Shown here: positions 12,636 through 64,000 of the stretch, one piece after another
How the letters are laid out: each line of letters begins with the position of its first letter
Numbering within the stretch: the first letter of the stretch is position 1
Assembly (NCBI GenBank): GCA_005116835.1
Contig: SWDM01000003.1
Span: 1 to 64,000 of the forward strand
Length of the DNA stretch: 64,000 nucleotides
Source of the DNA: Nitrospira sp.
Lineage (GTDB): Bacteria; Nitrospirota; Nitrospiria; Nitrospirales; Nitrospiraceae
Reading direction: 5' to 3'
Made by a program: the position numbers and the translations under genes
The notes under the pieces: model-generated
Told to the model about the DNA's origin: nothing
Databases searched by the model: none
The model's input: only the letters and a program-made list of their open reading frames with translations

Positions 12636-12752
12636 CCGACAGGAAGGACGGGGGAGCGGCCAGGGGCCTTCCTTGCTCGCGGAACAGAGGGGGGATGGAG
12701 CCTGATGATCTTCTGTGCTCGCGCAACGCGCGGCCTCCGAAGGCCCTCGTTG

Positions 12753-13434: not shown

Positions 13435-13494
13435 ATAGGGACAGGCTACTTTTTCGTATGAGCAGAGTCAAATTCCATCCGTGAGGGGGGCCAG

Positions 13495-13669: not shown

Positions 13670-13691
13670 ATGGCACACCTGTCTCTTTAGG

Positions 13692-16090: not shown

Positions 16091-16152
16091 GCTGGTACAA
16101 ACAGAATAGCAGCCGGCACCGCCTTCTTCAACAGAAGGACAGTATCCGCCTG

Positions 16153-16237
16153 ACTGGTTTGTTTGGTTGATTTGGTTTCTCTGGTTGGTTTTGTTCAACT
16201 AAAAAACTAAACAAACCAGACCAACCAAACAAACCAG
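16153..16237. repeat. R2 word-type inverted repeat, copy D
   Basis: ACTGGTTTGTTTGGTTG at 16153-16169 is matched by the reverse complement ending immediately before the prcA stop, with further TTTGG-type words in the middle. It fills the prcA-pafA gap and is a candidate for uncoupling pafA expression from prcA. Confidence 0.8.
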
Positions 16238-46548: not shown

Positions 46549-46559
46549 GGCAGCAGACC

Positions 46560-47012
46560 ATGAGCGCCTCACGCTACACAACCAGGCGCCTGTCAACAAT
46601 ACTCCTCGCCGGTCTCGCCCTCTTGCTCTGTTCGGCCATCGCCCACGCTGAGTCCATTGCCATCATCGTCAGCATGAAGAACCCCGACGACCAGCTGCGC
46701 CAGGCGGCCGTCGCCGGTATGTATCACGGCGAGACTATCCATTGGCCGAATGGCGAGAGAATCAAGTTGGTCAATCGAGAAATCTCCGCTCCCATCAGAA
46801 AGCAATTTTACGAGCAAGTGCTCAACTCCACATCGGACCAAGTGTTTTATCGCCAGGGCACGCCGGTTCCCGTGCAGAGCGTCATCGAGCGTTCCGACGA
46901 AGCCGTCGTCAACTTCGTCGCCACCATCGAAGGCGCCATCGGGTATGTCAGCCTATCGCGCCTACGAGCGATCGGCAGCAACCAGGTTAAGGTGGTCCTG
47001 ATCGTCGAATAG
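46560..47012 (+). CDS. PstS-like phosphate-binding domain protein
   Basis: The 150-residue protein has a signal peptide (cleavage after AIAHA, about residue 30) and a short PBP-type domain: 'IAIIVSMKNPDDQLRQAAVAGMYHGETIHWPNGERIKLVNRE', 'RKQFYEQVLN' and 'GAIGYVSLSRL', the last matching the C-terminal signature of PstS-like proteins. It is about half the length of a full PstS, so it may be a sensory or partner protein. The ATG is preceded by AGGG. The kinase gene begins 16 bases later. Confidence 0.82.
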   Translation: MSASRYTTRRLSTILLAGLALLLCSAIAHAESIAIIVSMKNPDDQLRQAAVAGMYHGETIHWPNGERIKLVNREISAPIRKQFYEQVLNSTSDQVFYRQGTPVPVQSVIERSDEAVVNFVATIEGAIGYVSLSRLRAIGSNQVKVVLIVE

Positions 47013-47028: not shown

Positions 47029-49254
47029 ATGAAGAACACACTGTTACGTAAACTGATGGTCCTCTTTTTTGTGGTGTTCTTCTGCGCAGTCGGCGGACTG
47101 ACCTATTTCGCCTATATATCGAGCCGAGACGCCATGCTGTATGAATTCAAGATTCGTGGGCATTCCCTCGCCAAGACCATCGCATCCGAGTCGAGAACCT
47201 ATTACCGTAACCGCGATATTGAAGGGTTTACCACCCTCCTCCAATCTCTCGGTGAAACGGAAGATGTGCTGGCCATTCTCACGTATCGTTCGCCCAAAAC
47301 CCTCTGGATCGAATTCGCCGGGATCGAACTCACCCCTGAAGATCTGCCTCTGCGCGAGACCACGAATACCTGGCAGCAGGACAAGGTGCTCACGAGGGGG
47401 CATGTCGTGTCGGAATTCGGAAATGCCGTAGTCGACTCAACGAAACCGGTCCTAGGCACTGGACGTGAAGCAGCCCCCCCGCTCGGCTGGATCCGTGTGT
47501 TCCTGGACCGGCGGGCGCTTGAAGAGCGGCTCAGCACGCTGGTCGCCCGCACCCTACTCATCAGCGGCATGACCATCATGATGGGAGGCGCCCTCTTCAC
47601 CTGGCTGCTCCGAAAATCCCTTCATGTCATCGGCCCCCTCACCGCAGCGACCAAGAAGGTCGCTCAGGGAGATTTGCGCACTATCGTCCCGGTATCCAGC
47701 CATGACGAGTTGGGGGAATTGGCGCAAGCTTTCAACCGCATGACCGAGCAGTTGTTGACGACCACCGTGTCCAAGAATTACATGGACAACATCTTTCGCT
47801 CTATGAACGACTCCCTGATCGTCGTCAATCCGGATGGCGCTATTCGAAGCGTGAACCAAGCCGCCTTACAACTCCTCGGATACAAGGAACAGGAGCTGTT
47901 GGGTCAACACATCGACCTCCTCTTCCCAAAGAAGGAAGGGTGGAGTTCAGGAAATGTTGGCGAAGAATTATTACAAAAAGGCGTGGTCAATCATGGAGAA
48001 ACCACGTACCTTACGAAAGACGGACGGGCGATCCCGATGTTCCTTTCCGAGGCAGTGATGCTGGGCGAGAACGGCAGCGTCCAGGGGATCATCTGTGTCG
48101 GCAAAGACATGACCGAGATCAAACAGGCGGAGAAGCAACTCCGGCTACATGAAACGGCCCTCGAATCCGCTGCAAACGCAGTCGTCATTACGGATCGAAG
48201 CGGGTGCGTCACCTGGACCAACACCTCCTTCACATCGTTGACCGGCTATTCTTTTGAAGAAGTAGCCGGCCAGGACATACGCATCCTAAAGTCCGACCGG
48301 CATGACGATGCCTTCTATCAAAACCAATGGGACACGATCCTCAGCGGAAAGGTATGGCAGGGCGAGGTCGTCAATCGGAAGAAGGACGGGAGCCTGTATA
48401 CGGAGGAAATGACGATCACCCCGGTCTACGACCAGAACGGGAAAATCAGCCACTTCATCTGCATCAAGCAGGACGTCACGGAACGGAAGCGCGGGGAAGA
48501 GGCCATCCGGAAGGCACACCAAACGCTGAAAGAACTCGACCAATTGCGATCGCAGTTTTTTTCCGACATCAGCCATGAGCTTCGAACTCCATTAACCGTC
48601 ATTCGCGGCGAAGCAGAAGTGACCCTCCGAGGAAAGGATAAGCCCGTTGCCGAATACAAAACAGTCCTGGAGCAGATCGTCCAATTGACCAACCAGGTCA
48701 ACAAGTTGGTCGGGGATCTGTTATTTCTCTCGCGATCCGAGTCGGGGACCATTGAGATCGTCAAGCGCCCCCTCCCACTGCTCGATATCCTACAGGAGGT
48801 GCATCGGGAAGCGCGTGTACTGGCGGAGAGAAAACACATTGCCGTAACGTTGAACAGCCCGATGGATACCTCTATCATTGTGAACGGAGATCCGCAGCGC
48901 CTTCGACAACTGTTTATGATCATCATCGACAACGCAGTGAACTACACGAAACAGGAAGGAGCCATCAAAGTAGATCTGGAGAGCGACGGGGCCACTGCCA
49001 GAGTGATTGTGGTCGACAACGGCGTCGGGATACCGGAGGGGGATCTTCCCCATGTGTTTCAGCGCTTTTATCGTGTGAAACAGGGGCGTCAAGACATAGC
49101 CCAGAGCGGGTCTGGCCTAGGGCTACATATCGCCAAATGGATCGCCGAGACGCACATGGGAACAGTCTCCATAGCGAGCGTCCTCAATCGGGGAACCACG
49201 GTCACCATTGAACTCCCCCTCCACGGATCCCAGACTCCCCCGACGGGCGGATAG
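47029..49254 (+). CDS. PAS-domain sensor histidine kinase
   Basis: The 741-residue inner-membrane kinase has TM1 (about residues 8-30), a periplasmic sensor region of about 150 residues, TM2 (about residues 183-205), a HAMP linker, two PAS domains (about residues 265-375 and 380-495), a HisKA helix with the phosphorylated His in 'FFSDISHELRTPL' (about residue 515) and an HATPase domain with N and G boxes ('DNAVNYTK', 'DNGVGIP' and 'GSGLGLHIAKW'). The layout resembles PhoR-type kinases. It lies directly after the porin and PstS-like genes and before an OmpR-family regulator. Confidence 0.93.
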   Translation: MKNTLLRKLMVLFFVVFFCAVGGLTYFAYISSRDAMLYEFKIRGHSLAKTIASESRTYYRNRDIEGFTTLLQSLGETEDVLAILTYRSPKTLWIEFAGIELTPEDLPLRETTNTWQQDKVLTRGHVVSEFGNAVVDSTKPVLGTGREAAPPLGWIRVFLDRRALEERLSTLVARTLLISGMTIMMGGALFTWLLRKSLHVIGPLTAATKKVAQGDLRTIVPVSSHDELGELAQAFNRMTEQLLTTTVSKNYMDNIFRSMNDSLIVVNPDGAIRSVNQAALQLLGYKEQELLGQHIDLLFPKKEGWSSGNVGEELLQKGVVNHGETTYLTKDGRAIPMFLSEAVMLGENGSVQGIICVGKDMTEIKQAEKQLRLHETALESAANAVVITDRSGCVTWTNTSFTSLTGYSFEEVAGQDIRILKSDRHDDAFYQNQWDTILSGKVWQGEVVNRKKDGSLYTEEMTITPVYDQNGKISHFICIKQDVTERKRGEEAIRKAHQTLKELDQLRSQFFSDISHELRTPLTVIRGEAEVTLRGKDKPVAEYKTVLEQIVQLTNQVNKLVGDLLFLSRSESGTIEIVKRPLPLLDILQEVHREARVLAERKHIAVTLNSPMDTSIIVNGDPQRLRQLFMIIIDNAVNYTKQEGAIKVDLESDGATARVIVVDNGVGIPEGDLPHVFQRFYRVKQGRQDIAQSGSGLGLHIAKWIAETHMGTVSIASVLNRGTTVTIELPLHGSQTPPTGG

Positions 49255-49435: not shown

Positions 49436-50119
49436 ATGCGTATCCTAGTGGTTGAAGACGACAAGCGGATTTCAAATTTCGTCAAGCGCGGCCTTGAGGC
49501 AGAAGGCTACCTGGTGGACCTCGCCCAAGACGGCGAGGAAGGGCTTCAAAAGGGCATGACCCCCTATGACATGATCGTCCTCGACCTTCTACTTCCCGGG
49601 AAAAACGGGTACGAGATCTGCCAGGCCCTGCGCCAAGAGCAGATCCAGACCCCGATCTTGATCCTGACGGCCAAAGATGCGCTCCAAGACAAGCTCCGCG
49701 TCTTCGACTACGGCGCAGACGATTATCTCACCAAACCCTTTGCCTTCGAAGAACTGCTCGCCCGGATCAAAGCCCTCCTCCGCCGCAAGCCATCCTACAA
49801 GGAGTCGGCGGCAGAACTAACAATAGGCGATCTCACGCTAAATCGGGACTCCCGGGAAGTTCGTCGAGGAAGCAAGGCTATTTCGTTGACCAGGAAGGAG
49901 TTCGACTTCCTAGAGTTACTGATGTCGAATCCCGACAAAGTCTTAAGCCGCGTGTCGATCCTCGAACAGGTCTGGGGTTATCATTACGACACAATGACCA
50001 ATGTCATCGATGTCTACATCGGATATCTTCGGAAAAAAATCGACGGCGGCGCGAAGCAAAAACTGATTCAAACCGTACGGGATTTCGGATACAAGATCTC
50101 TGCCAACAAGTCCTCCTAG
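49436..50119 (+). CDS. OmpR/PhoB-family response regulator
   Basis: The 227-residue protein has a receiver domain ('MRILVVEDDKRISNFV', phosphorylated Asp in 'MIVLDLLLPGKNG' at about residue 51, Lys in 'DYLTKPFAFEELL') and a winged-helix DNA-binding domain ('LTIGDLTLNRDSREVRRGSKAISLTRKEFDFLELLMSNPDKVLSR...'). It should be the partner of the PAS kinase just upstream. Three 11-bp-spaced repeats 50-80 bases after its stop could be its binding site. Confidence 0.95.
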   Translation: MRILVVEDDKRISNFVKRGLEAEGYLVDLAQDGEEGLQKGMTPYDMIVLDLLLPGKNGYEICQALRQEQIQTPILILTAKDALQDKLRVFDYGADDYLTKPFAFEELLARIKALLRRKPSYKESAAELTIGDLTLNRDSREVRRGSKAISLTRKEFDFLELLMSNPDKVLSRVSILEQVWGYHYDTMTNVIDVYIGYLRKKIDGGAKQKLIQTVRDFGYKISANKSS

Positions 50120-50312: not shown

Positions 50313-50867
50313 ATGCGAGTCCTGCTGGTGGAAGACGATGAGCGAATTGCCGGGTTCATGAAACGTGGGCTTGAAGCAGAAGCCTATGAGGTGGATCTCG
50401 CATCGGAAAAATCCCAGACCCTCGCGCTAACCGAAGCCGGCAAGTACGACACCATCATCATGGATATCTTTCTAGGGGCAGATGACGGATTGGATATCTG
50501 CCGGACGCTTCGGCAGCGATCGGTGGGAACCCCCATCGTGATCATGACGGCCAAGGATTCCGCGGAGACTAGACAGGCAAGCAAAGAAGCCGGCGCCGAC
50601 GCGTATCTTCCGAAGCCATTCCCATTTGACGATCTCGTGGCGACGCTCAAACGCCTTCATGGATCTGAGGCGTCGTCTGCTTCCCTGCAGGACTTGCGGC
50701 CAGAACGCCCTGTACCCCGAGAAGGGCAAACCCAGCGTTTACGTTTCCCCACCGATCTCGTCAAAAGAACCATGAGCCTGGACTTACCGGGAAAAGGACA
50801 TGACGGACATTCAGGCTTTCACCTAAGCGGACCCGCGAGTTTCCACAGGATTAAGGAGCCGGCATGA
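50313..50867 (+). CDS. Receiver-only response regulator
   Basis: The 184-residue protein has a full receiver domain ('MRVLLVEDDERIAGFM', Asp in 'TIIMDIFLGADDGLD', Lys in 'DAYLPKPFPFDDLV'), about 50% similar by eye to the regulator upstream ('KRGLEAE' shared). After about residue 125 there is no DNA-binding domain; the remaining 60 residues are proline- and arginine-rich and probably disordered. It must act through protein contact or as a phosphate sink. The AAGGGGAAG ribosome site fixes the ATG at 50313. Its stop overlaps the next glycosyltransferase by four bases. Confidence 0.85.
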   Translation: MRVLLVEDDERIAGFMKRGLEAEAYEVDLASEKSQTLALTEAGKYDTIIMDIFLGADDGLDICRTLRQRSVGTPIVIMTAKDSAETRQASKEAGADAYLPKPFPFDDLVATLKRLHGSEASSASLQDLRPERPVPREGQTQRLRFPTDLVKRTMSLDLPGKGHDGHSGFHLSGPASFHRIKEPA

Positions 50868-52210
50868 AGAAACTTCTCATCTATTCCCACGATACCTTTG
50901 GTCTCGGCAATATCCGGCGCATTATGAATATCGCCACCTATCTACACCGGGCCATTCCGGATGTATCCATCCTCATCGTGACCGGATCTCCCATGATCCA
51001 GAGCTTTCGCATCCCCAAGGGAATCGATTACATCAAGCTCCCCTGTCTCAGCCGAACGGAGAGCGAGGGGTACTCGGCGAAATATCTCGATTCGAAAATT
51101 GGCGACATCGTTCGATTGCGGTCCGACCTGATCCTCTCAGCTGTGCTCAATTTCAAGCCGGACATCATGCTCATCGACAAGAAGCCCTACGGCGTCAAGC
51201 ATGAATTGCGCGAGACGCTGAGTCTCGTGAAGAGCTATTTACCGAGAACCAGAACCATCCTCCTTCTTCGGGACATCCTCGATGCGCCGGAAGCGACCAC
51301 CAAGGTGTGGGAGGACAACGGATATTACGAGGCGGTGAAATCCGCCTACGACCTCGTGCTCGTGTTGGGAACGCCGGAAATATTCGATCCTCGGGTTGAA
51401 TATAACTTCCCGTTTACAGCTTCTGAAAAGGTCGAGTTCTGCGGATACATCCAGCCGCAATTTCTCCTCAGGGACCGAGATGCGATCAGACAGGAGCTGC
51501 AAATCAAGAGCGCTGAGCGTCTCGTCTTGGTGACACCGGGTGGCGGAGAAGACGGGCATGCTCTGATACAGACCTATATTCAGGCCTTGCGACAGATGCC
51601 ACGCGGGGCGCGCATCCGGAGCCTGATCGTCACAGGCCCGGAGATGTCGGAGTCGCAGCGGCATAGCTTGAACCAGTCGGCTCTGCAGTTTCCCGGCGTC
51701 AGCATGCTCGAATTCACGAATGACCTGCCGAGCTACATGAACGCTTCCGATCTGGTGGTATCGATGGGAGGCTACAACACGGTCTGTGAAATCCTCAGCC
51801 TGAAAAAACGCGCAATCATTGTCCCCCGCGTCCGGCCGGTAGAGGAACAATGGATTAGGGCAGAACGGATGGCCAACTTGGGTCTTCTGGCTACCATTCA
51901 TCCGGACTCCCTGACGCCCCAAGGACTGCTTCGCACGATTCTCGCAGAACTCAGTTCAGACCAGTCCCTGCGTCCTACGCTGGATCTGGCCGCGCTGCCC
52001 ACACTTACGAATCATGTCTTGATGTTGCTCGATGGCAAGGACCAACCGGCGCGTCTATCCCGCAATATTCATACTGGTTCATCGCAAAATCGCATCGAAC
52101 CCAGGCGAGGAGCAAGACCTTCCTTCATCTCGCCCCTAGCCTCTGGCCCCAGGCCTCTTGCCCAAACATTGGCGATTGCACCGGCAACGTTCATGGAAAA
52201 TGCGGTCTAG
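50864..52210 (+). CDS. GT-B glycosyltransferase (MurG-like C-terminal domain)
   Basis: The 448-residue protein has the GT-B fold of COG4671-like glycosyltransferases: 'LLIYSHDTFGLGNIRRIMNIATYL' (glycine loop, about residues 4-27), a 'LNFKPDIMLIDKKPYGVKHEL' region and, in the C-terminal domain, 'LVLVTPGGGEDGHALI' and 'SYMNASDLVVSMGGYNTVCEIL', the nucleotide-sugar-binding pattern of MurG and UDP-glucosyltransferases. The C-terminal 45 residues appear disordered. It overlaps the receiver-only regulator (ATGA), implying coupled synthesis. The partial gene at 63532 is a paralogue (same start pattern). Confidence 0.85.
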   Translation: MKKLLIYSHDTFGLGNIRRIMNIATYLHRAIPDVSILIVTGSPMIQSFRIPKGIDYIKLPCLSRTESEGYSAKYLDSKIGDIVRLRSDLILSAVLNFKPDIMLIDKKPYGVKHELRETLSLVKSYLPRTRTILLLRDILDAPEATTKVWEDNGYYEAVKSAYDLVLVLGTPEIFDPRVEYNFPFTASEKVEFCGYIQPQFLLRDRDAIRQELQIKSAERLVLVTPGGGEDGHALIQTYIQALRQMPRGARIRSLIVTGPEMSESQRHSLNQSALQFPGVSMLEFTNDLPSYMNASDLVVSMGGYNTVCEILSLKKRAIIVPRVRPVEEQWIRAERMANLGLLATIHPDSLTPQGLLRTILAELSSDQSLRPTLDLAALPTLTNHVLMLLDGKDQPARLSRNIHTGSSQNRIEPRRGARPSFISPLASGPRPLAQTLAIAPATFMENAV

Positions 52211-52239
52211 GGTACATTTTACTGACGGCTAGGCACGGC

Positions 52240-54888
52240 ATGAAGACGAAACGGCAGATGGTGGGCTATCTTCTAAAGACCTATCCAAAGGTCTCGGAGA
52301 ATTTTATCCTCCAGGAAATCCTCGATCTCGAAGCGCTCGGGCTCGGCCTGGAGATTTTCTCCCTCCAGCATCCGACCGATGCAATCGTGCCCAGCCTGGC
52401 CAAGCAAGTCCTGGCCCCTGTGACCTATCTTCCGAAGTCCATGGGGAAACGACAGGGCCGTCCATTGATGGCCCATCTCCGGCTGTTCACCGCACACCCG
52501 CTGCGATATATGGATACGTTCAGATTTCTGCGGCAACGACTGGAAGGGCCCTCATGGTCGGAGTTTATCCAAGGCGGCTGTCTGGCATGGCTTCTCTTAA
52601 AGTCAGGTATCCGCCATCTCCACGCGCATTTTGCCACTGAGCCGGCCGGAACGGCCGAACTCGTCCATCGTTTCACAGGGATTCCCTACAGTCTGACCTG
52701 CCATGCGAAAGACATTTTCCTGACCGCCCCCGAAGTGCTCCGCCGGAAGATGCACCACGCCACGTTTGTCGTGACCTGCACAGAAGCGAACCGTTCACAT
52801 CTTCAAAACATTGCAAGCAACGGCACGCCGATCCACCGGCTCTACCATGGATTGAACCTGGCTCGGTTCGATGTATTGCGCAAGAACGAATCCTCCGCTG
52901 ACACCAGCCTTCCCACGATCCTCAGCGTAGGCCGACTTCGTGAGAAGAAGGGCTTTCTAACGCTGATTCACGCCTGCCGGATCTTGGTGGACGCGGGACA
53001 TCGGTTCCGCTGCCAAATCGTCGGATATGGGCCGCTCCAGACGGAGATGGAGGAACTGATCCGCACGCTCGGCCTGGGCGAAACCCTGTCGTTGTGCGGC
53101 AAGAAGACCCTGGAGGAAGTCGTGGACCTCTACCGCCACGCAAGCATCTTTGCCCTGCCCTGCCGGGTCGCGGACGATGGAGATCGCGACGGCATTCCGA
53201 ACGTGTTCATGGAAGCGATGGCGATGGGACTTCCGGTCGTGTCGACCGACGTATCGGGGATTCCCGAACTGATCCACCACAATCGAAACGGCCTCCTGGT
53301 TCCACAGCAAGACGCCGATTCACTGGCCAAGGCTCTGAGCCAGCTCCTCGAGAGCCCGGAACTGAGGCTCCGGCTCGGCCAAGCCGGACGGGAAACCATC
53401 GTGAATAATTTTGTGTCCGAGCAGTCGAGCCGGCAGCTCAAAGAGCTGTTCGCCGAGCATATGCAGGCCCAGCCGACGCGGGTCGAATCCCACGAGGCCC
53501 TGGCTACCGCACCTGCCCGGCATGAGCCAACATTGGCTGATGCGACAACTCGCGGAGGGCAGGGAACGATCGGGTACATTTTGAAAGGCTTTCCCCGCAA
53601 TTCAGAAGCCTTTATCACGAGTGAAATCTATCTCTTGGAACGGATGGGGCTCAGGCTTCGGCTGTTCTCGGCCTTTCAGGGCGACGGCGCCGCCACCGGG
53701 TCTCGTGTCCAGGCTATCGCCTCCCCGCTGACCTACCTCCCCGAATGCGACGAGGCCAAGGACGGCGGGTTCATTCCCTGGTTGCTCTCAAACTTCATGA
53801 GATATCTTCCCAGCCACCTCCACGTGCTGCGGATCGCACCTCGCCGATATCTTCGGACGCTGTTCGAATCGCTGCGGCTGAGTGTCCGTTGCCGGTCGGG
53901 AGCCTTTCGGTGGCCCAAGAAAGTGTTTTACAAAGACTTCCTCCGCTCAGGCTTCATCGCCTGCCAGGTCAACGAGGATAGTAATATCCGCCACCTTCAT
54001 GCGCATTTCTGCCACGGCTCGACCACCATGGCCATGTTCGCCGGCATGCTGACCGGTCTTCCGTTCAGCTTTACGGCTCATGCCAAGGATATCTATCTCC
54101 CGAAACTGAATCCCGGTAATCTGCTCCAAATTAAAATGCGGCGGGCGGAGTTTGTCGTCACCTGCACCGGCGCCAATAAACAGTACTTGGAAGAGGCCTG
54201 TCCTGACGGGGCGCCTGTCTATACAATCTACCATGGGGTCGATACCTCCCGGTTTCATCCCTCACCGGACGGAGAGCCTGATCTACCTGTCATTCTCTCT
54301 GTCGGGCGGTTCGTCGAGAAAAAAGGGTTCCCGTTTCTGGTGCAGGCCTGTCGGATTCTCAGAGACCACGGGCATCAGTTTCAGTGCCGGATCGTGGGCG
54401 AGCCGGACGAGCAAAGCGGGCTCGTTCGTCAGTTGATCTTTCAGTCAGCACTTGAGGACAGGATTGTCATCGAGCCAGGCGTGACCCAGGACGAATTACG
54501 AGCCCTATATCGGCAGGCCACCATGTTTGTCCTGCCTTGCCAGATCGTCGACAACGGAGATCGCGACGGTATCCCGAACGTGCTGGCCGAAGCCATGGCC
54601 ACGGGCCTTCCAGTCGTCTCGACGGACATCTCGGGAATTCCAGAGTTGGTGGTTCACCGTAACAACGGCTTGTTGGTCCCGCAGCGAGACGTACATGCCC
54701 TCGCCAAAGCGATGGAAGAGCTGTTGACCGATGCCCAACTGCGACAGAGATTAGGACAAGCAGGGCGAGACACGATCGGACGCATCTTCGACTCAGCAAC
54801 GACCACGAAACAACTATGCTCGTTATTTGAATCGCAGGCGTGCGTCAAATCGACCGTTCAGAAGGAATCTCATGCCACTTGCTGCTGA
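52240..54888 (+). CDS. Tandem-fused double GT4 glycosyltransferase
   Basis: The 882-residue protein consists of two complete GT4-type glycosyltransferases joined head to tail. Half one runs to about residue 430 and half two from about residue 440. Each starts with a similar block ('GYLLKTYPKVSENFI' and 'GYILKGFPRNSEAFI'), has 'HLHAHF' and 'TCHAKDI'/'TAHAKDI' motifs, a nucleotide domain opening ('ILSVGRLREKKGF' and 'ILSVGRFVEKKGF') and the acceptor-donor signature ('DGIPNVFMEAMAMGLPVVS' and 'DGIPNVLAEAMATGLPVVS'). Both halves keep the catalytic-type acids, so both may be active and transfer consecutive sugars. No frameshift is needed to join them. Confidence 0.88.
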   Translation: MKTKRQMVGYLLKTYPKVSENFILQEILDLEALGLGLEIFSLQHPTDAIVPSLAKQVLAPVTYLPKSMGKRQGRPLMAHLRLFTAHPLRYMDTFRFLRQRLEGPSWSEFIQGGCLAWLLLKSGIRHLHAHFATEPAGTAELVHRFTGIPYSLTCHAKDIFLTAPEVLRRKMHHATFVVTCTEANRSHLQNIASNGTPIHRLYHGLNLARFDVLRKNESSADTSLPTILSVGRLREKKGFLTLIHACRILVDAGHRFRCQIVGYGPLQTEMEELIRTLGLGETLSLCGKKTLEEVVDLYRHASIFALPCRVADDGDRDGIPNVFMEAMAMGLPVVSTDVSGIPELIHHNRNGLLVPQQDADSLAKALSQLLESPELRLRLGQAGRETIVNNFVSEQSSRQLKELFAEHMQAQPTRVESHEALATAPARHEPTLADATTRGGQGTIGYILKGFPRNSEAFITSEIYLLERMGLRLRLFSAFQGDGAATGSRVQAIASPLTYLPECDEAKDGGFIPWLLSNFMRYLPSHLHVLRIAPRRYLRTLFESLRLSVRCRSGAFRWPKKVFYKDFLRSGFIACQVNEDSNIRHLHAHFCHGSTTMAMFAGMLTGLPFSFTAHAKDIYLPKLNPGNLLQIKMRRAEFVVTCTGANKQYLEEACPDGAPVYTIYHGVDTSRFHPSPDGEPDLPVILSVGRFVEKKGFPFLVQACRILRDHGHQFQCRIVGEPDEQSGLVRQLIFQSALEDRIVIEPGVTQDELRALYRQATMFVLPCQIVDNGDRDGIPNVLAEAMATGLPVVSTDISGIPELVVHRNNGLLVPQRDVHALAKAMEELLTDAQLRQRLGQAGRDTIGRIFDSATTTKQLCSLFESQACVKSTVQKESHATCC

Positions 54889-56869
54889 ACGACAGGTTAT
54901 TTCCACGACTGCGAGATACGGACGCCTGTTCCATGCTCCATACGACGCATGGACGCCGGACCAGCTCCTCCGTCATTTCCAAACGAGGACGTCCGTCCAG
55001 TATTTCCCCGTTGTGGATGCCATCGAAACCGCACGTGAGAAGATCGAGAACATTACCAACGGCCGGTTTGAGTTCAATCGGGAATTCCATACCGTACCGT
55101 CTCCGATCCGATGGACCGTGAATCCCAGTCATGATCGTGAATGGCTGATACTCCTTCACAAGTTCTACTACGCCGTCGGGCTGGGGATGGCCTACCACGA
55201 GACCAGACAGCCCCGCTATGCAGAAAAGTGGGTCGATCTCACGTCCTCGTGGATCGACGCCGTTCCACTCGATTTCTTACCCAGCGACGTCGCAGGACGG
55301 CGCATCCAAAATTGGATATTCGCTCACTACTACTTTGTGACCCTACACCAAGTCTCTGGTATCGATCCCGATTTCTACATGCGATTTCTCGAGTCGCTTC
55401 ACAATCAGGTGTGTTATCTGCGGGAGCACCTTACGCCTGCGAGAAATCACCGCACCTTGGAGTTGTGCGCGATCTTTTTAACTGCCGTGGCGTTTCCAGA
55501 ATTTGACGAGGCCGAGGACTGGCTTGCATTTTCCACGCAGGAACTGTCGAGCAATATGCAAACCGACTTCTTGCCGGATGGAGTCCATTGCGAACTGTCC
55601 ACCGATTACCATCATCTCGTCCTCAAGAATTACCTCTGGATCCGCAAGCTGGCCCAGATCAATCAGATCGACATGCCCGATTCGATAGACGAGGGGATCA
55701 AGAAGGCGCTTGAGTTCTCCGTCTATTCACACAGGCCGGACGGCGCGATTCCGTCTCTGAGCGATGGGGACAGCCGAAATTTCCTCGACCTTCTTGAACA
55801 GGGCTACGAACTCTACGGAAGCGAATACTTTAAGTATGTATCGTCCCAGGGGAAGAGCGGAACTCCTCCCCCTGAACGATCGAAAGGCTTTGCCGCCAGC
55901 GGGTATTACATTCTCCGGAGCGGCTGGAGCGATCAGAGCGAATCGTATCAGGATCAGCGGTATTTGATCTTCGACTGCGGCCCTCTCGGCGCCGGGAACC
56001 ATGGGCATCTCGATCTCTTAAGTTTCGAGATGGCGGCCTATGGCAAGCCGTTGATCGTCGACCCGGGTCGTTATACCTACGCCGAATCTGGGGAAACCAA
56101 TTGGCGGGCGCTCTTCCGGGGAACCTCCTACCACAATACCGTGCTCGTAGACGGCAAGAATCAAACGAGGTACGAGTGGAAGAAGAACCGATTCAAGGTC
56201 ACTGGTTCAGAACCGGAACGGGAGGTCAAATCGTTCGTCACTGAGCCTGGGATCGACTATCTGCATGGGGTAGCCAGAAGCCACGAATACCCGGTCGTGC
56301 ATGAGCGGAAGGTGGCGTTCATCAACGGAGAATACTGGGTGATTGTCGACCTCCTGAGAGCCACCGAGTCCCACGAGTACGACCTCTTGTTCCACCTCTC
56401 GCCTCCGGCGCAGGATCGGGTCTCAGTCAGGGTGTCGGACGATACGCTGTCGATCCATTCGCCGCAGCTCATTCTTGCGCAGCCTTTCATCCCAAACGTG
56501 CGCCCTTCCATCCAGGGAGGTTTTGTCTCCACCTCCTACGGTGAAAAACATCGTGCCCCGATCGTGCGACTGACTCAGCGAGCTTCAAACGCTTGCTTCC
56601 TTACTGTCCTGTATCCGTATAAAGGCAACAAACCGAATATCTCCGTTGAGACGCCGGAATTCGACGGATCTCCACAGACACTCCTCTTCGGCGAACGGGC
56701 GGCTGCTCGAATCACGATTGCGCGAAATGGGGAATGGTATCGCGACGATCTGCTGTTCACTGATCAGGCCGCCTCGCGCAGCGAAACTCCTAATTGGCCC
56801 TTCTCAAGTCATGTGCGCGTCTCAAGGACGGACCACAATGGCCGTCTTCTGTTTCGGTATCGGGGCTGA
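54872..56869 (+). CDS. Heparinase II/III-family protein, first copy
   Basis: The 665-residue protein has the Hepar_II_III_N alpha/alpha toroid ('HDREWLILLHKFYYAVGLGMAYHE', then 'NHRTLELCAIFL', 'ELSTDYHHLVLKN') and the C-terminal Hepar_II_III beta-sandwich ('DCGPLGAGNHGHLDLLSFEMAAYGKPLIVDPGRYTY'). Both are polysaccharide-lyase type domains that act on uronate-containing chains. No signal peptide is visible, so it may act in the cytoplasm or be exported otherwise. The ATG at 54872 has AAGGA five bases upstream and overlaps the GT gene by 17 bases. The next gene is a paralogue. Confidence 0.88.
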   Translation: MPLAAERQVISTTARYGRLFHAPYDAWTPDQLLRHFQTRTSVQYFPVVDAIETAREKIENITNGRFEFNREFHTVPSPIRWTVNPSHDREWLILLHKFYYAVGLGMAYHETRQPRYAEKWVDLTSSWIDAVPLDFLPSDVAGRRIQNWIFAHYYFVTLHQVSGIDPDFYMRFLESLHNQVCYLREHLTPARNHRTLELCAIFLTAVAFPEFDEAEDWLAFSTQELSSNMQTDFLPDGVHCELSTDYHHLVLKNYLWIRKLAQINQIDMPDSIDEGIKKALEFSVYSHRPDGAIPSLSDGDSRNFLDLLEQGYELYGSEYFKYVSSQGKSGTPPPERSKGFAASGYYILRSGWSDQSESYQDQRYLIFDCGPLGAGNHGHLDLLSFEMAAYGKPLIVDPGRYTYAESGETNWRALFRGTSYHNTVLVDGKNQTRYEWKKNRFKVTGSEPEREVKSFVTEPGIDYLHGVARSHEYPVVHERKVAFINGEYWVIVDLLRATESHEYDLLFHLSPPAQDRVSVRVSDDTLSIHSPQLILAQPFIPNVRPSIQGGFVSTSYGEKHRAPIVRLTQRASNACFLTVLYPYKGNKPNISVETPEFDGSPQTLLFGERAAARITIARNGEWYRDDLLFTDQAASRSETPNWPFSSHVRVSRTDHNGRLLFRYRG

Positions 56870-56872
56870 ATC

Positions 56873-59020
56873 ATGATCAATCATGCTGTCATCAACGGGA
56901 CCACGCTGGATTTCATGAGGGAGCCGTACACCTCTATGCCGGCGGATGAACTGTTGAGTTACTTCCAAACCAGGAACGGTGTCCGGTATTTGCCTCTGTC
57001 ACGTGGAACCCACCTGAACGTGGAACGAGCCGAGAAGATCTTGAAGCATGAGTTCGACTTCAATAACGAGGTCTACCAGCTTCCGGAGAACTTCGACTGG
57101 AAGGCGAACCCGAGCCGAGACATCGAGTGGCTGATCCTCCTGCACAAATTTTACTACACAAAGGATCTTGCCGGCGCCTACGACTACACAGGAGACGACA
57201 CATACACGAGAAAATGGATGGAGCTGGTTTCTTCCTGGATACGAAACGTGCCGGATGGCTTTATCAATAGTCACGTCACAGGCAGGCGATTGCAACAGTG
57301 GCTGTCAGCCTACCACTACTTCGTTCCCGGGAAGCGTTCCAAGGCCATCACGCCGTCGTTTCTCGTGGAGTTGTTCCGGTCGGTCCATTCGCAGACCCTC
57401 TACTTGTGCGAACATCTGACACCGGAAGGCAATCACCGCACCATTGAGCTGTACTCCATCTTCTTGGTGGCCGTGGTCTTTCATGAGCTACGAGAGTCCG
57501 CCTGGCTGCTGGATTTTGCGAAGCAGGAGTTACTGAAAAACATGGAGCAGGACCTGCTCGAAGATGGCGTACATCGCGAGCTGTCTACCGATTACCATCA
57601 TACGGTGCTCAAGAACCATCTACGCGTGCGGGAGTTGGCCGTGCTGAACGGAATCGCACTCTCGCCGAGATTCAACGAAATGATGAACAAGGCGTTGGAG
57701 TTTTCCATGTATGCCCACAAGCCTGACGGGTTGATTCCCGCGATCAACGATGGAGACAGCAACAGCTATCTATCCCTATTGAAGAAGGCATGCTCGCACT
57801 ATCCCAACGAACAGTTTCTCTACGTGGTCTCCAAAGGCAAAGAAGGCACGCCACCATGTGAGCGTTCAAAAGGATTCCCGGACAGCGGATACTATGTGCT
57901 TCGTGGGAGCTGGACCCACGAACCCTATGAAGACGGACTGTATTTGTTGTTCGACTGCGGGCCGCTGGGGTTCGGCAGTCACGGACACTACGACCTACTG
58001 AGTTTCGAGGCAGCCGCCTACGGTCATTCACTCATCGTCGATCCCGGCAGGTATACATACAGTGATGAGAGCGCGGAGGGCATCGAATGGCGGCGACTGT
58101 TCAAGAGCACGGCCTACCACAATACTGTCGTCGTAGACGGAAAGGACCAGATCCCCTATCGCCGCATGAAGCCGGTCGGGCCGGAGCCAAGAGCGAGCGT
58201 GAAGACGTTTGCCACGGCTGATGGGTTTGATTTCGTCCAGGCGCAGGCCTTCAGCCATGAGTATCCAGTTGTCCATGAGCGCACCGTCTTTTTCGCCGTT
58301 CCGGAGTATTGGGTCGTCACGGACAGGTTGTATGGCGAAGGCAGTCATGCCTATGACCTCTATTTCCACTTAGCGCCAAGAGCGCTGGGACGAACAGCCC
58401 TGCACACCAGGGGAAAGAGCCTATGGGTTTCTTCCCCGAATCTTCTAATCGCCCAGCCACTATCGTCGAACATTCACACGTCAATAGAAGATGGTTTTGT
58501 ATCGCCTCAATATGGAGTCAAGCAGGAAGCACCGATCGTAAAATTCACGCAGAAGGCCGATGCAACGGCCTTCTTTCATACCTTGCTCTATCCTTACCGT
58601 AAGGAGCCGCCGATCCTTGACATAGAATCTGTTGCGGTCAGCGACTCCCATGGAGACTGTTCTCAAACACAAGCCACGGCTCTGAAGATCACGGTGTGCT
58701 CAGAGACAGAACAGTATTCCGATTATCTGTTTCTGGCGCATGAACAATCTCTACGCGAGTATTCGTTCGACGACATCGTATGTCGTAGCCGGATGTTGTT
58801 CCTGAGGAAAGACCGTAGCGGCCGTATCGTAAAGCTACAAGCCGAAGGGCTTGAGCAGCTTCGGGTCGGATCAACCGTCCTGATCGAAGGTACCAACGTG
58901 AGTCGGCGGGTGAGCTATGGATCAGGCCGGGTTCATCTTTGCACTCCGAAGAAGTCCCTCAGCATGGACCTCGATCACATCGACGGGCTGTCGGAGTTGG
59001 TCCGCGAGAACCACATCTAA
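56873..59020 (+). CDS. Heparinase II/III-family protein, second copy
   Basis: The 715-residue protein is a clear paralogue of the preceding one: 'RDIEWLILLHKFYYTKDLAGAYDY', 'NHRTIELYSIFL', 'ELSTDYHHTVLKN' and 'DCGPLGFGSHGHYDLLSFEAAAYGHSLIVDPGRYTY' align throughout, but a C-terminal extension of about 50 residues is added. It starts three bases after the first copy, indicating tandem duplication followed by divergence. Both retain the conserved histidines. No signal peptide is seen. Confidence 0.88.
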   Translation: MINHAVINGTTLDFMREPYTSMPADELLSYFQTRNGVRYLPLSRGTHLNVERAEKILKHEFDFNNEVYQLPENFDWKANPSRDIEWLILLHKFYYTKDLAGAYDYTGDDTYTRKWMELVSSWIRNVPDGFINSHVTGRRLQQWLSAYHYFVPGKRSKAITPSFLVELFRSVHSQTLYLCEHLTPEGNHRTIELYSIFLVAVVFHELRESAWLLDFAKQELLKNMEQDLLEDGVHRELSTDYHHTVLKNHLRVRELAVLNGIALSPRFNEMMNKALEFSMYAHKPDGLIPAINDGDSNSYLSLLKKACSHYPNEQFLYVVSKGKEGTPPCERSKGFPDSGYYVLRGSWTHEPYEDGLYLLFDCGPLGFGSHGHYDLLSFEAAAYGHSLIVDPGRYTYSDESAEGIEWRRLFKSTAYHNTVVVDGKDQIPYRRMKPVGPEPRASVKTFATADGFDFVQAQAFSHEYPVVHERTVFFAVPEYWVVTDRLYGEGSHAYDLYFHLAPRALGRTALHTRGKSLWVSSPNLLIAQPLSSNIHTSIEDGFVSPQYGVKQEAPIVKFTQKADATAFFHTLLYPYRKEPPILDIESVAVSDSHGDCSQTQATALKITVCSETEQYSDYLFLAHEQSLREYSFDDIVCRSRMLFLRKDRSGRIVKLQAEGLEQLRVGSTVLIEGTNVSRRVSYGSGRVHLCTPKKSLSMDLDHIDGLSELVRENHI

Positions 59021-59027
59021 GGAAGCA

Positions 59028-60485
59028 ATGCGAGCGATGCAAATCGATTCACAGTGTCCCCACCTTTCGACGGCGTTGCAGCCTTCCCTCATGCAGGAGT
59101 TGCTCCAACGAGCGCTGTTGGATCCGCTCGATCACGAGGGGCAACGACTCCGAATGAATGCCTGCATCGTCGGGGAGAAACGCTATAAACCCGGGAAGAG
59201 CTTCGTGCTGTCCTATCGCCTTCACTTACACGATGCGCACACAGGCGCCAAACATGAGCAGGTCGTCTCGGCTCGACTCTGTCGTCCTGACGAGGGCCTG
59301 GCGGAGTTTCATCGGGCGAGATCCCGGCAGCTTGTTCGCACACCCGGCGTTCGAGCATTGGCGTATATCCCCGAGATAGAGATGGTCGTATGGTCGTTCC
59401 CCAATGATCGCAAGCTGTCGCACCTGCCGAAGCTTCTCGATGTCGAATACCTGAAGACCTGTCTACCCGAGAAACTAAGGGCACTCGGTGTGGGCGAATC
59501 ACATGAGATCGCCGCGATCGTACCGGAGATCTTGCACTACTTGCCGGAACGTTCGTGCATGATTCGTTACCATCTGTCATTGAAGGACCGATCGACCGGG
59601 GAACATGGCGCATTGACGATCTATGGGAAGACCTACCGTGATGAGGACGGCGCCGAGGTGTATTCGATCATGCGGCAACTGTCGGCACAGATACCTGGAA
59701 GCGCCGCACCGCTTGGTTATGATCAGAAGCTGAGGACTGTATGGCAGTCGCACATACCCGGCGAACCCTTCCTCTGGGAAACGCTGGAAGAGGCTCAGAT
59801 ACCGGAAACATTTCGGGGCATCGCGAGAGCTGTTGCACAATTCCATTCTTGCACCGTTCGCACCGACTGTCGATTCGATCTGTCCGACCTCGATGAGTCT
59901 CTCGTAGACACTATTGCAGCAGCCAGGCAAGCATATCCGGACATGGAAGGTCGCATTGCATTACTGGTGAATGCCTTGTTGGCGCAACGCCGTTCCATGG
60001 GTTGGTCGGAGCCCCTCACCACTCCGATTCATCGTGATCTCAAGATGCGCAACTTCCTGATCGATGGGGAGCACATTGCGCTCATCGACATGGACTGTGT
60101 CTGTCTCGGCGACCCTCTCAGCGACATCGGCAGTCTGATCGCGAATTTCTATCTCAATGGAATTCGAGCCGGCTGTCATCAGGACAGGATTCGAGAGGCC
60201 GTGGACGTGTTCTGTCTCACCTACGCCGAATGTATCCCCTGGCGCCTATCCTGGCCACAGGTCGACTGGTACACGGCTGCAGCATTTATCCATGAAGTCA
60301 CGCGTCGGAGCATTCGGCAACTGGATGGCGAGCGCGTGAAGCACATCAGCGAATACCTCGACCTTTGTGAAAGCTTAGTATCCGGCCAATCTGTTGTATC
60401 GGGCGAACAGAATTCAATACACCATGGATCCAAACACGATGCGGGGGTAAGGCATCAGACACCCAGAACGTGCCGTGAACGCTGA
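59028..60485 (+). CDS. APH/choline-kinase-fold phosphotransferase, first
   Basis: The 485-residue protein has an N-terminal domain with 'KRYKPGKSFVLSYRLHLHD' (about residues 42-60), which resembles the nucleotide-binding beta-sheet. Its C-terminal lobe contains the canonical catalytic loop 'PIHRDLKMRNFLI' and metal-binding 'ALIDMDCVCLGDPLSDI', as in aminoglycoside and choline/ethanolamine kinases. Its substrate is unknown. The ATG at 59028 has AAGGA four bases before it; the frame extends into the preceding gene without features. The C-terminal 45 residues are polar and disordered. Confidence 0.82.
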   Translation: MRAMQIDSQCPHLSTALQPSLMQELLQRALLDPLDHEGQRLRMNACIVGEKRYKPGKSFVLSYRLHLHDAHTGAKHEQVVSARLCRPDEGLAEFHRARSRQLVRTPGVRALAYIPEIEMVVWSFPNDRKLSHLPKLLDVEYLKTCLPEKLRALGVGESHEIAAIVPEILHYLPERSCMIRYHLSLKDRSTGEHGALTIYGKTYRDEDGAEVYSIMRQLSAQIPGSAAPLGYDQKLRTVWQSHIPGEPFLWETLEEAQIPETFRGIARAVAQFHSCTVRTDCRFDLSDLDESLVDTIAAARQAYPDMEGRIALLVNALLAQRRSMGWSEPLTTPIHRDLKMRNFLIDGEHIALIDMDCVCLGDPLSDIGSLIANFYLNGIRAGCHQDRIREAVDVFCLTYAECIPWRLSWPQVDWYTAAAFIHEVTRRSIRQLDGERVKHISEYLDLCESLVSGQSVVSGEQNSIHHGSKHDAGVRHQTPRTCRER

Positions 60486-60495
60486 TTAATCAATT

Positions 60496-62151
60496 ATGGA
60501 TAACGTAACCAAATTTACTGACCCATCTGTGGTAACGATCCGAGACAAGAACACTGCAAGCGCACGTCGCTGCATCGCGCTGTACCCCGGCGCCTTTCGG
60601 CCACCCCATGCGGCGCATTTGACGGCAGTCCTCGATCTTGCAGTGAGACCGGATGTCGACGAGGTCGTCGTGATCATCTCTAATCGATGCCGGAATATAC
60701 CTGGAACGACCAAGGCGCTTGACCCCGATGTCGCCCGACAGATCTGGTCGATCTATCTACACGGCGTCACCAAGGTCCGAATTGAGGTCGCCCCACACAC
60801 CTCTGTGAAACATGCCCTCAGCTACTTTGACCGCCTTGAAGCCGGCGACGCCCTGCTCTTCTGCGTCGGAGAAACTGACTTCGAGCAAGGGGATGAAAGG
60901 TTCGAACAGATAGAAGACCTTTCCCGCTGCACCGGAATTTCCTCCCGCCTTGTCGCCGCCCCTACCGGTTCCATCACGGTCCGGGCGACCGATTTGAGAG
61001 CGCTGTTAGGCCTTGGAGAGGCTGGGCGAGAAGCCTTTACGTCCGCGCTTCCCGCTCATCTGAATGCGGAGCAACGCGCGCGCGTCTGGGAGACTTGCCA
61101 TAACGGAATGCGAGAGACGGGCGAGATTATTCGGGAGAAGGTACTGGGCATCATCGGCACACACAACCTAGGCGACGTGAAAGAGATTTGCAGCCTGTGT
61201 GAGGGCAAACTCGATCAAGTCTACCGTGTGTCGTTCGCAGACGGCCGACGTCATGTCATCAAATATGCCGGCGATACGGTCGGGGCGGAATCTGTTGGAG
61301 AACAATTACGATTCAAACCGAAGAGACGCCTGTCGGCGGAACGGCGCGCCCTAAACAGATTGCGCGATAACGGGATCGATGAGGTCGATCTCCCGAACGT
61401 GGTGTTGTTCGATAAAGAGACGCTGACGCTTGTGTTGACGGAGGTATGCCAGGGTGGAAGATCTTTACTGGACGATCTCAAGAAAGGTCTGTTCGATCCG
61501 AAGGTGGCCAGTCAGGCGAGCCATTTCCTGGCCCGGTGCCATACCTTGGCGGCGCCCATTGCTCCCGTGTGGGGCGACCAAGACACAGACCGGCTCCATT
61601 GGCGAACGATGCTCGCGTTACGGACGGTGGGGATCGAAACAGGGCCGGCCTCCTGGCAGATTCGAAACGATTTGGCCGCGGTGAAACGCGCAAGTGACAC
61701 AGCGAGCGAGCAAGGGGATAGAAACCGGCTGTTGATACTGAACGACGTTCCCCACAACATCCTTCTGGGCACACAGAGAATCGGCGTCATCGATTTTGAA
61801 CTCTGCTCAAGTATTGGAGATCCTGCGTACGATCTCGGTCTTTTCCTGGGAGACTATATATTCTTTGGTCTGACCACCCAGTCCGGTTATTCCGGTCAGA
61901 TCGCCCTTCAGGAAGCGCTGAATGCCTATCGACAACGAGTCGGAAATCGATGGGTGGCTATGCGCGCGCGGGTCGTGTCGTTCGCAGGCGCAGCCATGCT
62001 CTCTCGGCTCATGGGTCATCGCCGAATGGACGTTCACCCGGTCGAGCCTCGCATCTTTAGCACGGCTGCAGCATTACTCTCGTCAGGGCTTAGGGAAATC
62101 GAAGAGATAGACTCGATACTTGGCAATGCAATTTCGGGCCGGTTAGCGTAA
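60496..62151 (+). CDS. Fusion of HxGH nucleotidyltransferase and APH-fold kinase
   Basis: The 551-residue protein joins two domains. Residues about 25-175 match the HxGH cytidylyltransferase/adenylyltransferase superfamily: 'ALYPGAFRPPHAAHLTAVLDLA' (GxFxPxHxxH motif, about residues 30-40) and 'TVRATDLR' (ISxTxxR-type motif, about residue 168). Residues about 225-540 are a choline/aminoglycoside-kinase fold with 'LILNDVPHNILLG' (catalytic-loop position) and 'GVIDFELCSSIGDPAYDLGLF'. The usual His-Gly before the catalytic Asp is replaced by Leu-Asn. A kinase fused to its own nucleotidyltransferase would phosphorylate and then activate an alcohol or sugar. Its first 15 residues resemble the start of the gene at 62165. 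Confidence 0.8.
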   Translation: MDNVTKFTDPSVVTIRDKNTASARRCIALYPGAFRPPHAAHLTAVLDLAVRPDVDEVVVIISNRCRNIPGTTKALDPDVARQIWSIYLHGVTKVRIEVAPHTSVKHALSYFDRLEAGDALLFCVGETDFEQGDERFEQIEDLSRCTGISSRLVAAPTGSITVRATDLRALLGLGEAGREAFTSALPAHLNAEQRARVWETCHNGMRETGEIIREKVLGIIGTHNLGDVKEICSLCEGKLDQVYRVSFADGRRHVIKYAGDTVGAESVGEQLRFKPKRRLSAERRALNRLRDNGIDEVDLPNVVLFDKETLTLVLTEVCQGGRSLLDDLKKGLFDPKVASQASHFLARCHTLAAPIAPVWGDQDTDRLHWRTMLALRTVGIETGPASWQIRNDLAAVKRASDTASEQGDRNRLLILNDVPHNILLGTQRIGVIDFELCSSIGDPAYDLGLFLGDYIFFGLTTQSGYSGQIALQEALNAYRQRVGNRWVAMRARVVSFAGAAMLSRLMGHRRMDVHPVEPRIFSTAAALLSSGLREIEEIDSILGNAISGRLA

Positions 62152-62164
62152 GCCGGGAATACAT

Positions 62165-63535
62165 ATGAATAACTTAACCAAATTTGCCAATCCATCTGTC
62201 ATGAAGGCCGTGCTCACGGAGCGGCTTCCGTTGCTTTGCCCAGGCAGTTCGGGAATTACAAGCTGCCGCGTTCAACATGTGCGGTACTCCCCGAAGAAAC
62301 AGCCGGAGAATGAAAGCCTGGCTGCCTGCTACCACCTTGGGATCAGAGACAAGGACTCTCAACGCGAGCGACAAGTGATCCTGTACTGCCAAGCTTTTCT
62401 CGGTGGGCACAGCCAGAGAGAGATCGACCGCTTGGCTCGGCGCAGCGCAGACACCGCGGCCCTCCATAGCATGCCGCATCACTTCCGCGATCTAGATCTG
62501 CTTGTGTGGGTCTTTCCAGAAGATCCGGCGATCCCGCATCTGCCGGAGGTGAGCGATCCGGAGCGGGTCATGGCGCATCTCCCCTATACATCCCTTCCAA
62601 ATGGTCTTGATGAGGCGAGGGACATCAGGTCAGTCAACGTGGAGGTTGTCAACTATCGCCCGGAGTTACGATGTACGACCCGGTACGATCTCAGCTGGGG
62701 AGCAGCCGATCAGGCTCAGTCACTCACCATCTTCGGCAAGACGTTTCGAAGCGGGGAGGGACACGACGTCTATACCAGAAGTGAATACTTATGGAACCGT
62801 TTCTCCGGCGTTGACGAGGAGGTTCTTTTCTCCCAACCGTTGGGATACAAGTCTGAGGTACAGACCCTCTGGCAACTCGGCGTCGAGGGAACGCCGCTCT
62901 GTCGTGCGATCGGGAAAGACAATTGCGATGCGTATCTTAAGACGGTCGCCAAGGGGTTGGCCATGGTTCAGAACAGTGACTTAGCTGGTCTCCCGAAATG
63001 GACTCTGGATGAGCACCTCGCTGAAGCCGATAAGAAGATTGAGAAACTACGCCGGGCGGTTCCCTCGCTGCTGGAAGAATTGAACCTCCTCGCCCAGCTT
63101 GTCCATCGCGACGCCCCAAGCCTCTCCGACATTCCCCTTCGACCGATATATTGGGATTTCCATGTCAATCAGCTCTTGGCCCAAGACGGAAAGGTCGCCT
63201 TCTTCGATTTTGACGAGCTTGTTATCGGAGACCCCTTGCAAGATATTGCGAATTTTATCGTGGACCTACAGTTTCGTGACGTGAGCCAGCCTTTGGCTCG
63301 ACGGATGGCGAAGTCGTTGTACAACTCCTACCGTTCTCAGGTGAAGTGGGAGGTTCCGATCGATCGCGTCAGGTGGCACGCGAGGGTTCAGTTCATCAAT
63401 AAGGCCTACCGTGTTTACATTCAACAGTCTCCTGACGTCAAAGAGACTGTTAGTGAACTCATCCATATGGCGGCCCAAGAGACGACGTTGGGCTGGATCG
63501 GCAACGCGAGCCTGATCGAGGAGATGGCACGATGA
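62165..63535 (+). CDS. APH/choline-kinase-fold protein, third
   Basis: The 456-residue protein begins with the same short peptide as the preceding gene (MNNLTKFANPSV). Its C-terminal lobe has 'PIYWDFHVNQLLA' and 'VAFFDFDELVIGDPLQDIANFI', matching the APH catalytic loop and DFD metal motif but with Tyr-Trp in place of His-Gly before the catalytic Asp. It also shares a 'LTIFGKTFRSGEG' block with 'LTIYGKTYRDEDG' in the first kinase-fold gene, so these two are related. The substrate is unknown. Its stop overlaps the following gene (ATGA). Confidence 0.78.
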   Translation: MNNLTKFANPSVMKAVLTERLPLLCPGSSGITSCRVQHVRYSPKKQPENESLAACYHLGIRDKDSQRERQVILYCQAFLGGHSQREIDRLARRSADTAALHSMPHHFRDLDLLVWVFPEDPAIPHLPEVSDPERVMAHLPYTSLPNGLDEARDIRSVNVEVVNYRPELRCTTRYDLSWGAADQAQSLTIFGKTFRSGEGHDVYTRSEYLWNRFSGVDEEVLFSQPLGYKSEVQTLWQLGVEGTPLCRAIGKDNCDAYLKTVAKGLAMVQNSDLAGLPKWTLDEHLAEADKKIEKLRRAVPSLLEELNLLAQLVHRDAPSLSDIPLRPIYWDFHVNQLLAQDGKVAFFDFDELVIGDPLQDIANFIVDLQFRDVSQPLARRMAKSLYNSYRSQVKWEVPIDRVRWHARVQFINKAYRVYIQQSPDVKETVSELIHMAAQETTLGWIGNASLIEEMAR

Positions 63536-64000
63536 AGAAACGGGTACTCATGTATTGTCAGCATGTTCTCGGGATGGGCCATCTCGTGAGAAGCCTGGAG
63601 ATCGTTCGTGCGCTGAAGGACTGGGATGTCACGTTTCTAAACGGCGGCGATCTCTGCCCAGGGATGGGATTCCCCCCTCAGACAGAGGTCATAAATCTCC
63701 CTCCGATCAAGTCGGAATCGGATTTCAAGACCATCCTGGCTGCGGAGAAGGGTCAGGATCTGGAGGCCATAAAACGGATTCGCGCTCGTCGAATCCAGGC
63801 AGAGTTTGCCCGCATCCAGCCCGATGTCTTTCTCATCGAAATGTTTCCGTTCGGACGGAAGCACTTTGCGTACGAGCTGGTGCCGGTTTTAGAGCAGATC
63901 CGGCTCAAAAAAATGCCGACAGCGGTGGTGTGCAGCCTTCGCGACATTCTGGTCAATAATAAACGGAATCAGGCGCAGCATAATGAACGAGCGATCACGC
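63532..64000 (+). CDS. GT-B glycosyltransferase, partial at the window end
   Basis: The visible 156 residues have 'RVLMYCQHVLGMGHLVRSLEIVRAL' (GT-B glycine loop) and 'IQPDVFLIEMFPFGRKHFAYELVPVLEQI', the same plan as the glycosyltransferase at 50864, of which it is a paralogue. It starts with an ATG overlapping the previous stop. The frame remains open at base 64000, so its C-terminal domain lies outside the window. Confidence 0.85.
   Translation, partial: MKKRVLMYCQHVLGMGHLVRSLEIVRALKDWDVTFLNGGDLCPGMGFPPQTEVINLPPIKSESDFKTILAAEKGQDLEAIKRIRARRIQAEFARIQPDVFLIEMFPFGRKHFAYELVPVLEQIRLKKMPTAVVCSLRDILVNNKRNQAQHNERAIT

Follow-up and report, generated by a model that had tools for sequence, protein, structure and literature searches.

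The window considered here, a stretch of 64,000 nucleotides forming positions 1-64000 of a 175,674-base contig from Nitrospira sp., holds at its right-hand end one half of a gene cluster that probably forms a regulated locus by which an acidic polysaccharide, either exopolysaccharide or capsule, is made and exported, with editing of the chain by lyases and with biosynthetic genes of a cassette type. As the contig is 175,674 bases long the locus can be traced past the window edge, which splits the cluster in half, and it reaches ~72,360 (72,359). A first-pass annotation made from the sequence had described nine tightly spaced plus-strand genes; all nine open reading frames (ORFs) of 50313-64000 are indeed there, separated by -29 to +29 bases, and Pfam matches their domains: Response_reg is found in one ORF, two Glycos_transf_1 stretches lie in another, two ORFs carry Hepar_II_III_N together with Hepar_II_III_C, three carry APH, and Glyco_tran_28_C occurs twice, once behind the regulator and once at the edge. 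It had also expected the cluster to continue beyond the window, and this proved correct, with an ABC exporter, a deacetylase-like gene, two glycosyltransferase (GT) genes and an AlgE-type barrel lying between the edge and ~72,359.

The gene that spans the window edge, GTb-PDA (63532..64000, plus strand, continuing to 65550 on the contig), encodes a GT28-like transferase (PF04101) fused to a DUF2334/deacetylase-like domain and serves as a marker for the cluster, being found in 19/396 Nitrospirota genomes. A recognisable gene order is common to 18 neighbourhoods (the window's own and 17 others, some of them shortened by contig ends) from two Nitrospirota families, so that the arrangement is far from the single occurrence that would have counted against it. 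Other Nitrospirota families keep this order, their proteins being about 30-80% identical in amino-acid sequence, thus the cluster is not a chance grouping. The recurring core comprises GTa, a GT4 protein (tandem or single), HepA, APH1, a histidine phosphatase, APH2, GTb-PDA, in some cases a further GT4, the ABC protein and AlgE, with HepB, NT-APH, PDA2, GT4c and GTd being optional. Searches of open-access literature that paired Nitrospira with heparinase or Manganitrophus with polysaccharide, or that combined exopolysaccharide, heparinase and ABC, turned up no account of the locus. It is conserved and apparently undescribed so far, and is best seen as a novel version of glycan loci that are already known.

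The core is also carried on plasmids of Candidatus Manganitrophus. In GAC2 it is mostly intact, with the ABC gene split into two ORFs, whilst several cluster genes of the GAC1 plasmid copy are fragmented. The records concerned, CP114560.1 and CP114554.1, are extrachromosomal, one of them being just 34 kb with an ISL3 transposase adjoining the cluster, and fragments of a SPASM/radical SAM gene lie in the cluster on CP114554.1 (23414-24252), near the NT-APH/phosphatase position.

It had been proposed that the product was a surface or storage glycan and that an export gene should be sought past the window. Both an ABC half-exporter (65547-67406) and an AlgE-type barrel (Pfam Alginate_exp, 70890-72359) are present there, and they strongly support the surface half of that proposal; storage is unlikely with an exporter and a barrel in the locus, and was rejected. 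The best-scoring models for the ABC protein are of the MsbA type, with further matches to PglK and to the HepA exporter of heterocyst polysaccharide. The structure model of the AlgE protein, made from 18 sequences with a predicted local distance difference test score (pLDDT) of 64, has 18 strands, and in a Foldseek search of the PDB ranks 1-17 were all AlgE, that of P. aeruginosa at the top (E 1.6e-17), with the next porin at 9e-11. An AlgE orthologue (E<=1e-60) occurs in 9/78 Nitrospiraceae genomes, and these nine coincide exactly with the GTb-PDA carriers among the 78; AlgE is therefore most likely a component of the system, rather than a gene that happens to lie nearby. In every locus that reaches that far its gene lies after the ABC gene or after the optional genes. 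Within the clusters of 13 genomes no OPX (Poly_export, PF02563) or Wzz (PF02706) gene was found. Polysaccharides are known to cross the outer membrane by three routes, a Wza-like OPX protein, a short OPX protein with a barrel, and a synthase with a barrel (PMC9601211), and an ABC exporter with an AlgE-type barrel but no OPX protein matches none of these exactly. In the proposed mechanism the product would be carried over the inner membrane by the MsbA/PglK-type exporter and over the outer membrane by the barrel.

The chromosomal site of the cluster can be empty. In cluster-free genomes of the same genus (G151, G085, G331 and G373) the upstream gene w42929 adjoins the downstream TolC gene, with at most one short ORF between them. 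Furthermore, the trees of two cluster proteins conflict: the AlgE tree places the window genome (G000) and G195 in a clade with G108 and G247 (support 100/100), whereas the GTb-PDA tree keeps G000, G195 and G212 apart from G108 and G247, which group with genus g2. When the AlgE grouping was imposed on the GTb-PDA tree it was rejected (AU test, p 3e-47), as was holding G000, G195 and G212 together on the AlgE tree (p 2e-5), these p-values being indicative as the groups were picked after the pairwise identities had been viewed and the clade test shares the assumptions of the model. Because of the empty sites and the conflict between trees, the best reading of these sequence comparisons is that a biosynthetic cassette has been exchanged between strains at a fixed chromosomal site, as in capsule loci, the stretch from a regulator module to the conserved downstream flank having the cassette, lacking it or holding another in its place. 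GC content was tried as a signature of a mobile element and gave no contrast, the island having 55.1% and its flanks 55.5-56.1%.

HepA (54872..56869, plus strand) and HepB (56873..59020, plus strand) are both heparinase II/III (PL12-like) lyases, in which PF16889 and PF07940 score above cut-off, giving an N-terminal toroid and a C-terminal beta domain; both score below the curated HepC cut-off. Their nearest solved relatives are the PL12 heparinase III structures 5jmd and 4mmh, a remote similarity with a best E of about 1e-34. The catalytic residues of 4MMH are Asn240, Tyr294 and His424 (PMC12088678), which align to Asn187, Tyr241 and His370 of HepB, and the triad is identical in 21/21 cluster lyases. 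By hydropathy none of the cluster lyases has a signal peptide or hydrophobic N-terminus, in contrast to nearly all the AlgE proteins, and the lyases are therefore probably cytoplasmic, working on the chain before it is exported, either as it grows or once it is complete. The earlier idea that the glycan is remodelled by lyases is thus plausible, with the correction that this would take place in the cytoplasm, where HepA and HepB may trim the chain, control its length or recycle it. A lyase within a glycan biosynthesis locus is seen elsewhere, as the conjugative E. coli IncC plasmid pCRE10.2 carries, flanked by IS26, an O-antigen-like cluster in which a member of the alginate lyase family is encoded between GTs.

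The chain itself would be assembled in the cytoplasm by GTa, the tandem GT4, GTb and the extra GT4s, probably from uronic acid and N-acetylhexosamine. GTa (50864..52210, plus strand) is a GT-B glycosyltransferase with a MurG/GT28-like C-terminal domain (PF04101, E 6e-14), and its gene opens the biosynthetic part of the cluster in nearly all relatives. It is followed by the tandem GT4 gene (52240..54888, plus strand), the product of which is EpsE-like and has two GT4 domains in one chain (two stretches of PF00534); in family f6 and Manganitrophus this protein has a single domain. Past the window lie GT4c (68462-69475) and GTd, a GT-like protein (69616-70767). Both transferases noted earlier at the two ends of the nine genes are indeed GT-B enzymes, of a GT28-like kind, although the last has to be redescribed as a fusion. 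The Pfam match of its second domain to DUF2334 is sub-threshold, yet the deacetylase motifs D/HxxxH/FTPPWNR are invariant in 19/19 orthologues, and the domain may de-N-acetylate part of the chain. PDA2 (67526-68422) is a putative deacetylase with a weak match to the XrtA-associated type, no Pfam or PDB family being matched. Deacetylase-like domains suggest an N-acetylhexosamine in the polymer. Hints of a uronate come from the PL12 lyases, from one relative (G291) in which a UDP-glucose dehydrogenase-like gene lies close to AlgE, and from the nucleotide sugar dehydrogenases that adjoin related GT clusters of rhizobia. Among the cluster genes there is no GT2 processive synthase or PilZ protein.

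In G291 a 1219-residue protein of bacterial Ig-like repeats (Big_5) is encoded between the UDP-glucose dehydrogenase and AlgE (3966-7625 of that locus). On Rhizobium and Mesorhizobium plasmids relatives of GTa, GT4 and GTb occur with a nucleotide sugar dehydrogenase and an adenylate/guanylate cyclase, and an ABC protein stands there beside a cyclic-nucleotide-binding gene, possibly marking a glycan that is controlled by cyclic nucleotides.

Three kinase-fold proteins were reported initially and all three do have the APH fold, but only APH1 (59028..60485, plus strand; PF01636, E 6e-17) has canonical catalytic motifs, its HxDxxxxN and DxD elements being intact as HRDLKMRN and IDMD. APH2 (62165..63535, plus strand; PF01636, E 8e-11) has an atypical catalytic loop, YWDFHVNQ; its metal-binding Asn is mostly Gln and, in the window copy and three more, Tyr replaces its His, some copies being canonical. 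NT-APH (60496..62151, plus strand; PF01636) joins a nucleotidyltransferase domain to a degenerate APH-fold domain, in which the His of HxDxxxxN is lost in 5/5 orthologues and the Asp is replaced by Asn in 2/5, the window copy included, where a neighbouring Asp could stand in for it. The first domain had been called an HxGH transferase, and its model does resemble members of that superfamily, the phosphopantetheine (PPAT) and nicotinate-nucleotide (NadD) adenylyltransferases (E 3e-5 to 1e-3), although its motif in the five aligned orthologues is HAAH, with Arg163 invariant. A PDB profile search with NT-APH gave chance-level matches only, and the whole-protein model was left unused as the kinase half is of low confidence (pLDDT 55 overall). 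NT-APH is present in 5/296 genomes, the nearest named carrier being Nitrospira sp. CG24A, and occupies in the window the place where relatives have the histidine phosphatase. Beyond Nitrospirota the distribution of the cluster genes is based on plasmids only, and the plasmid search gave no relatives of NT-APH. It could be that APH1, together with the histidine phosphatase in most relatives or with NT-APH here, handles phosphorylated sugar intermediates.

A number of points weigh against a locus for an exported acidic polymer. The AlgE model is of moderate confidence, AlgE-type proteins can be ordinary porins, and the window genome has two other Pfam Alginate_exp loci. OPX and Wzz genes are found elsewhere in nearly all of the 13 genomes and could act in trans. 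A PL12-like sequence is not enough to define what the lyases cleave, the nearest solved enzymes being only remotely similar, and signal peptides were assessed by hydropathy alone. Finally, no gene of the locus could be recognised as an initiating phosphoglycosyl transferase, a flippase or a polymerase, thus a glycolipid or oligosaccharide could be the product. A lipid-linked oligosaccharide or glycolipid of the lipopolysaccharide-core or protein-glycosylation type, flipped by a PglK/MsbA-like ABC protein with the AlgE barrel as an ordinary porin neighbour, would agree with the MsbA-type scores and PglK match of that protein and with at least six GT domains, which suit a defined oligosaccharide. 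However, it would not account for AlgE being found exactly in the cluster carriers and following the ABC or optional genes, and a short product would hardly call for enzymes that depolymerise it, so that this alternative is unlikely.

The first-pass annotation had itself favoured a glycan with a phospho-substituent derived from the kinase and nucleotidyltransferase pair, which would be of a phosphocholine-like kind. The fusion of the two folds in NT-APH, the presence of three APH-fold proteins and the intact motifs of APH1 speak for such a pathway, but with NT-APH so rare and its kinase motif degenerate, with a histidine phosphatase in its place in the core version, and with no phospho-alcohol transferase (LicD-like or CDP-alcohol type) seen in the locus, the substituent is not supported as a general feature and appears improbable. 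Least credible of all is a locus for the uptake and catabolism of environmental uronate glycans. Whilst two heparinase-type lyases, kinase-fold proteins and an outer-membrane barrel might be expected of one, the GT domains and the export-type ABC protein would be out of place, there is no substrate-binding protein or SusCD pair, and the lyases are probably cytoplasmic and come without partner sulfatases or glucuronyl hydrolases. Synthesis and export of an acidic exopolysaccharide or capsule is thus the reading that is preferred here.

Such a locus has features of several known systems. With the alginate system of P. aeruginosa, in which export through AlgE is synthase-dependent, it shares the 18-stranded barrel, an enzyme of the alginate-lyase superfamily and a probable uronate polymer, but the Alg8/Alg44 synthase, AlgK and AlgX are all missing from it, it has an ABC exporter instead, and its lyases lack a signal peptide. 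ABC-dependent capsule and exopolysaccharide systems (group 2 capsule, the NdvA/ChvA glucan and the HepA heterocyst polysaccharide) likewise have an ABC exporter and cytoplasmic assembly by multiple GTs, but the Nitrospira locus lacks OPX/PCP genes and KpsC/S and has the AlgE-type barrel, lyases and APH-fold proteins. In the composite EpsX/EpsY translocon an AlgE-like barrel also functions outside the synthase pathway (PMC9601211), coupled there to a short OPX protein that is absent from the 13 Nitrospirota loci. The lyases have the domain architecture and Asn/Tyr/His triad of heparinase III (PL12; 4MMH, 5JMD), to which their similarity is only remote, and differ in being predicted to be cytoplasmic and in lying within a biosynthetic locus. 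Plasmid clusters of alphaproteobacteria (Azospirillum, Ruegeria, Rhizobium) have homologues of GTa, GT4 and GTb in the same order at 32-38% identity, some with a histidine phosphatase and polysaccharide deacetylase as well, but in the stretches examined they have no heparinase, APH-fold or AlgE homologues, and the rhizobial ABC protein beside the cyclic-nucleotide-binding gene is a different, longer one. It may tentatively be suggested, and with rather less assurance than the general function, that nitrifying or Mn-oxidising Nitrospirota export the polymer by a distinct route, with an ABC exporter of the MsbA/PglK type working alongside a dedicated AlgE-type barrel and without OPX or Wzz partners, that cytoplasmic heparinase-type lyases set the chain length ahead of export, and that cassettes are switched in a serotype-like manner at a fixed site.

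Upstream of the biosynthetic genes are those for a PAS/HAMP sensor histidine kinase (47029..49254, plus strand; Pfam HAMP, PAS, HisKA and HATPase_c), the probable regulator of the locus, for RR1, an OmpR-type response regulator (49436..50119, plus strand) that is kept at this place with 67-88% identity, and for RR, a receiver-only response regulator (50313..50867, plus strand; PF00072, E 3e-26) that has no output domain and overlaps GTa by 4 bases. The kinase and RR1 travel with the cluster in several relatives, the kinase preceding it there likewise. In G415 a porin-like gene, a short secreted-type protein, the histidine kinase, RR1 and RR form a module directly next to the flank with no glycan genes (G415:C7:166000-184200, 10285-16465), and either the regulators have a role without these genes or the module is a remnant. 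At 45184-47012, upstream of the kinase, are a possible porin-like protein, to which no Pfam family matches, and a short protein resembling PstS (weak NCBIfam match), a pair that hints at the sensing of phosphate or another solute as the input.

Nitrospira live in flocs and biofilms, and in the literature searched no exopolysaccharide locus of this make-up was found for them. If the function proposed here is correct, floc formation would be linked to a specific set of genes. The combination of an ABC exporter with an AlgE-type barrel would be added to the three export schemes already described (PMC9601211), and a capsule-like exchange of cassettes would be suggested for environmental nitrifiers, perhaps driven by phage or grazing.

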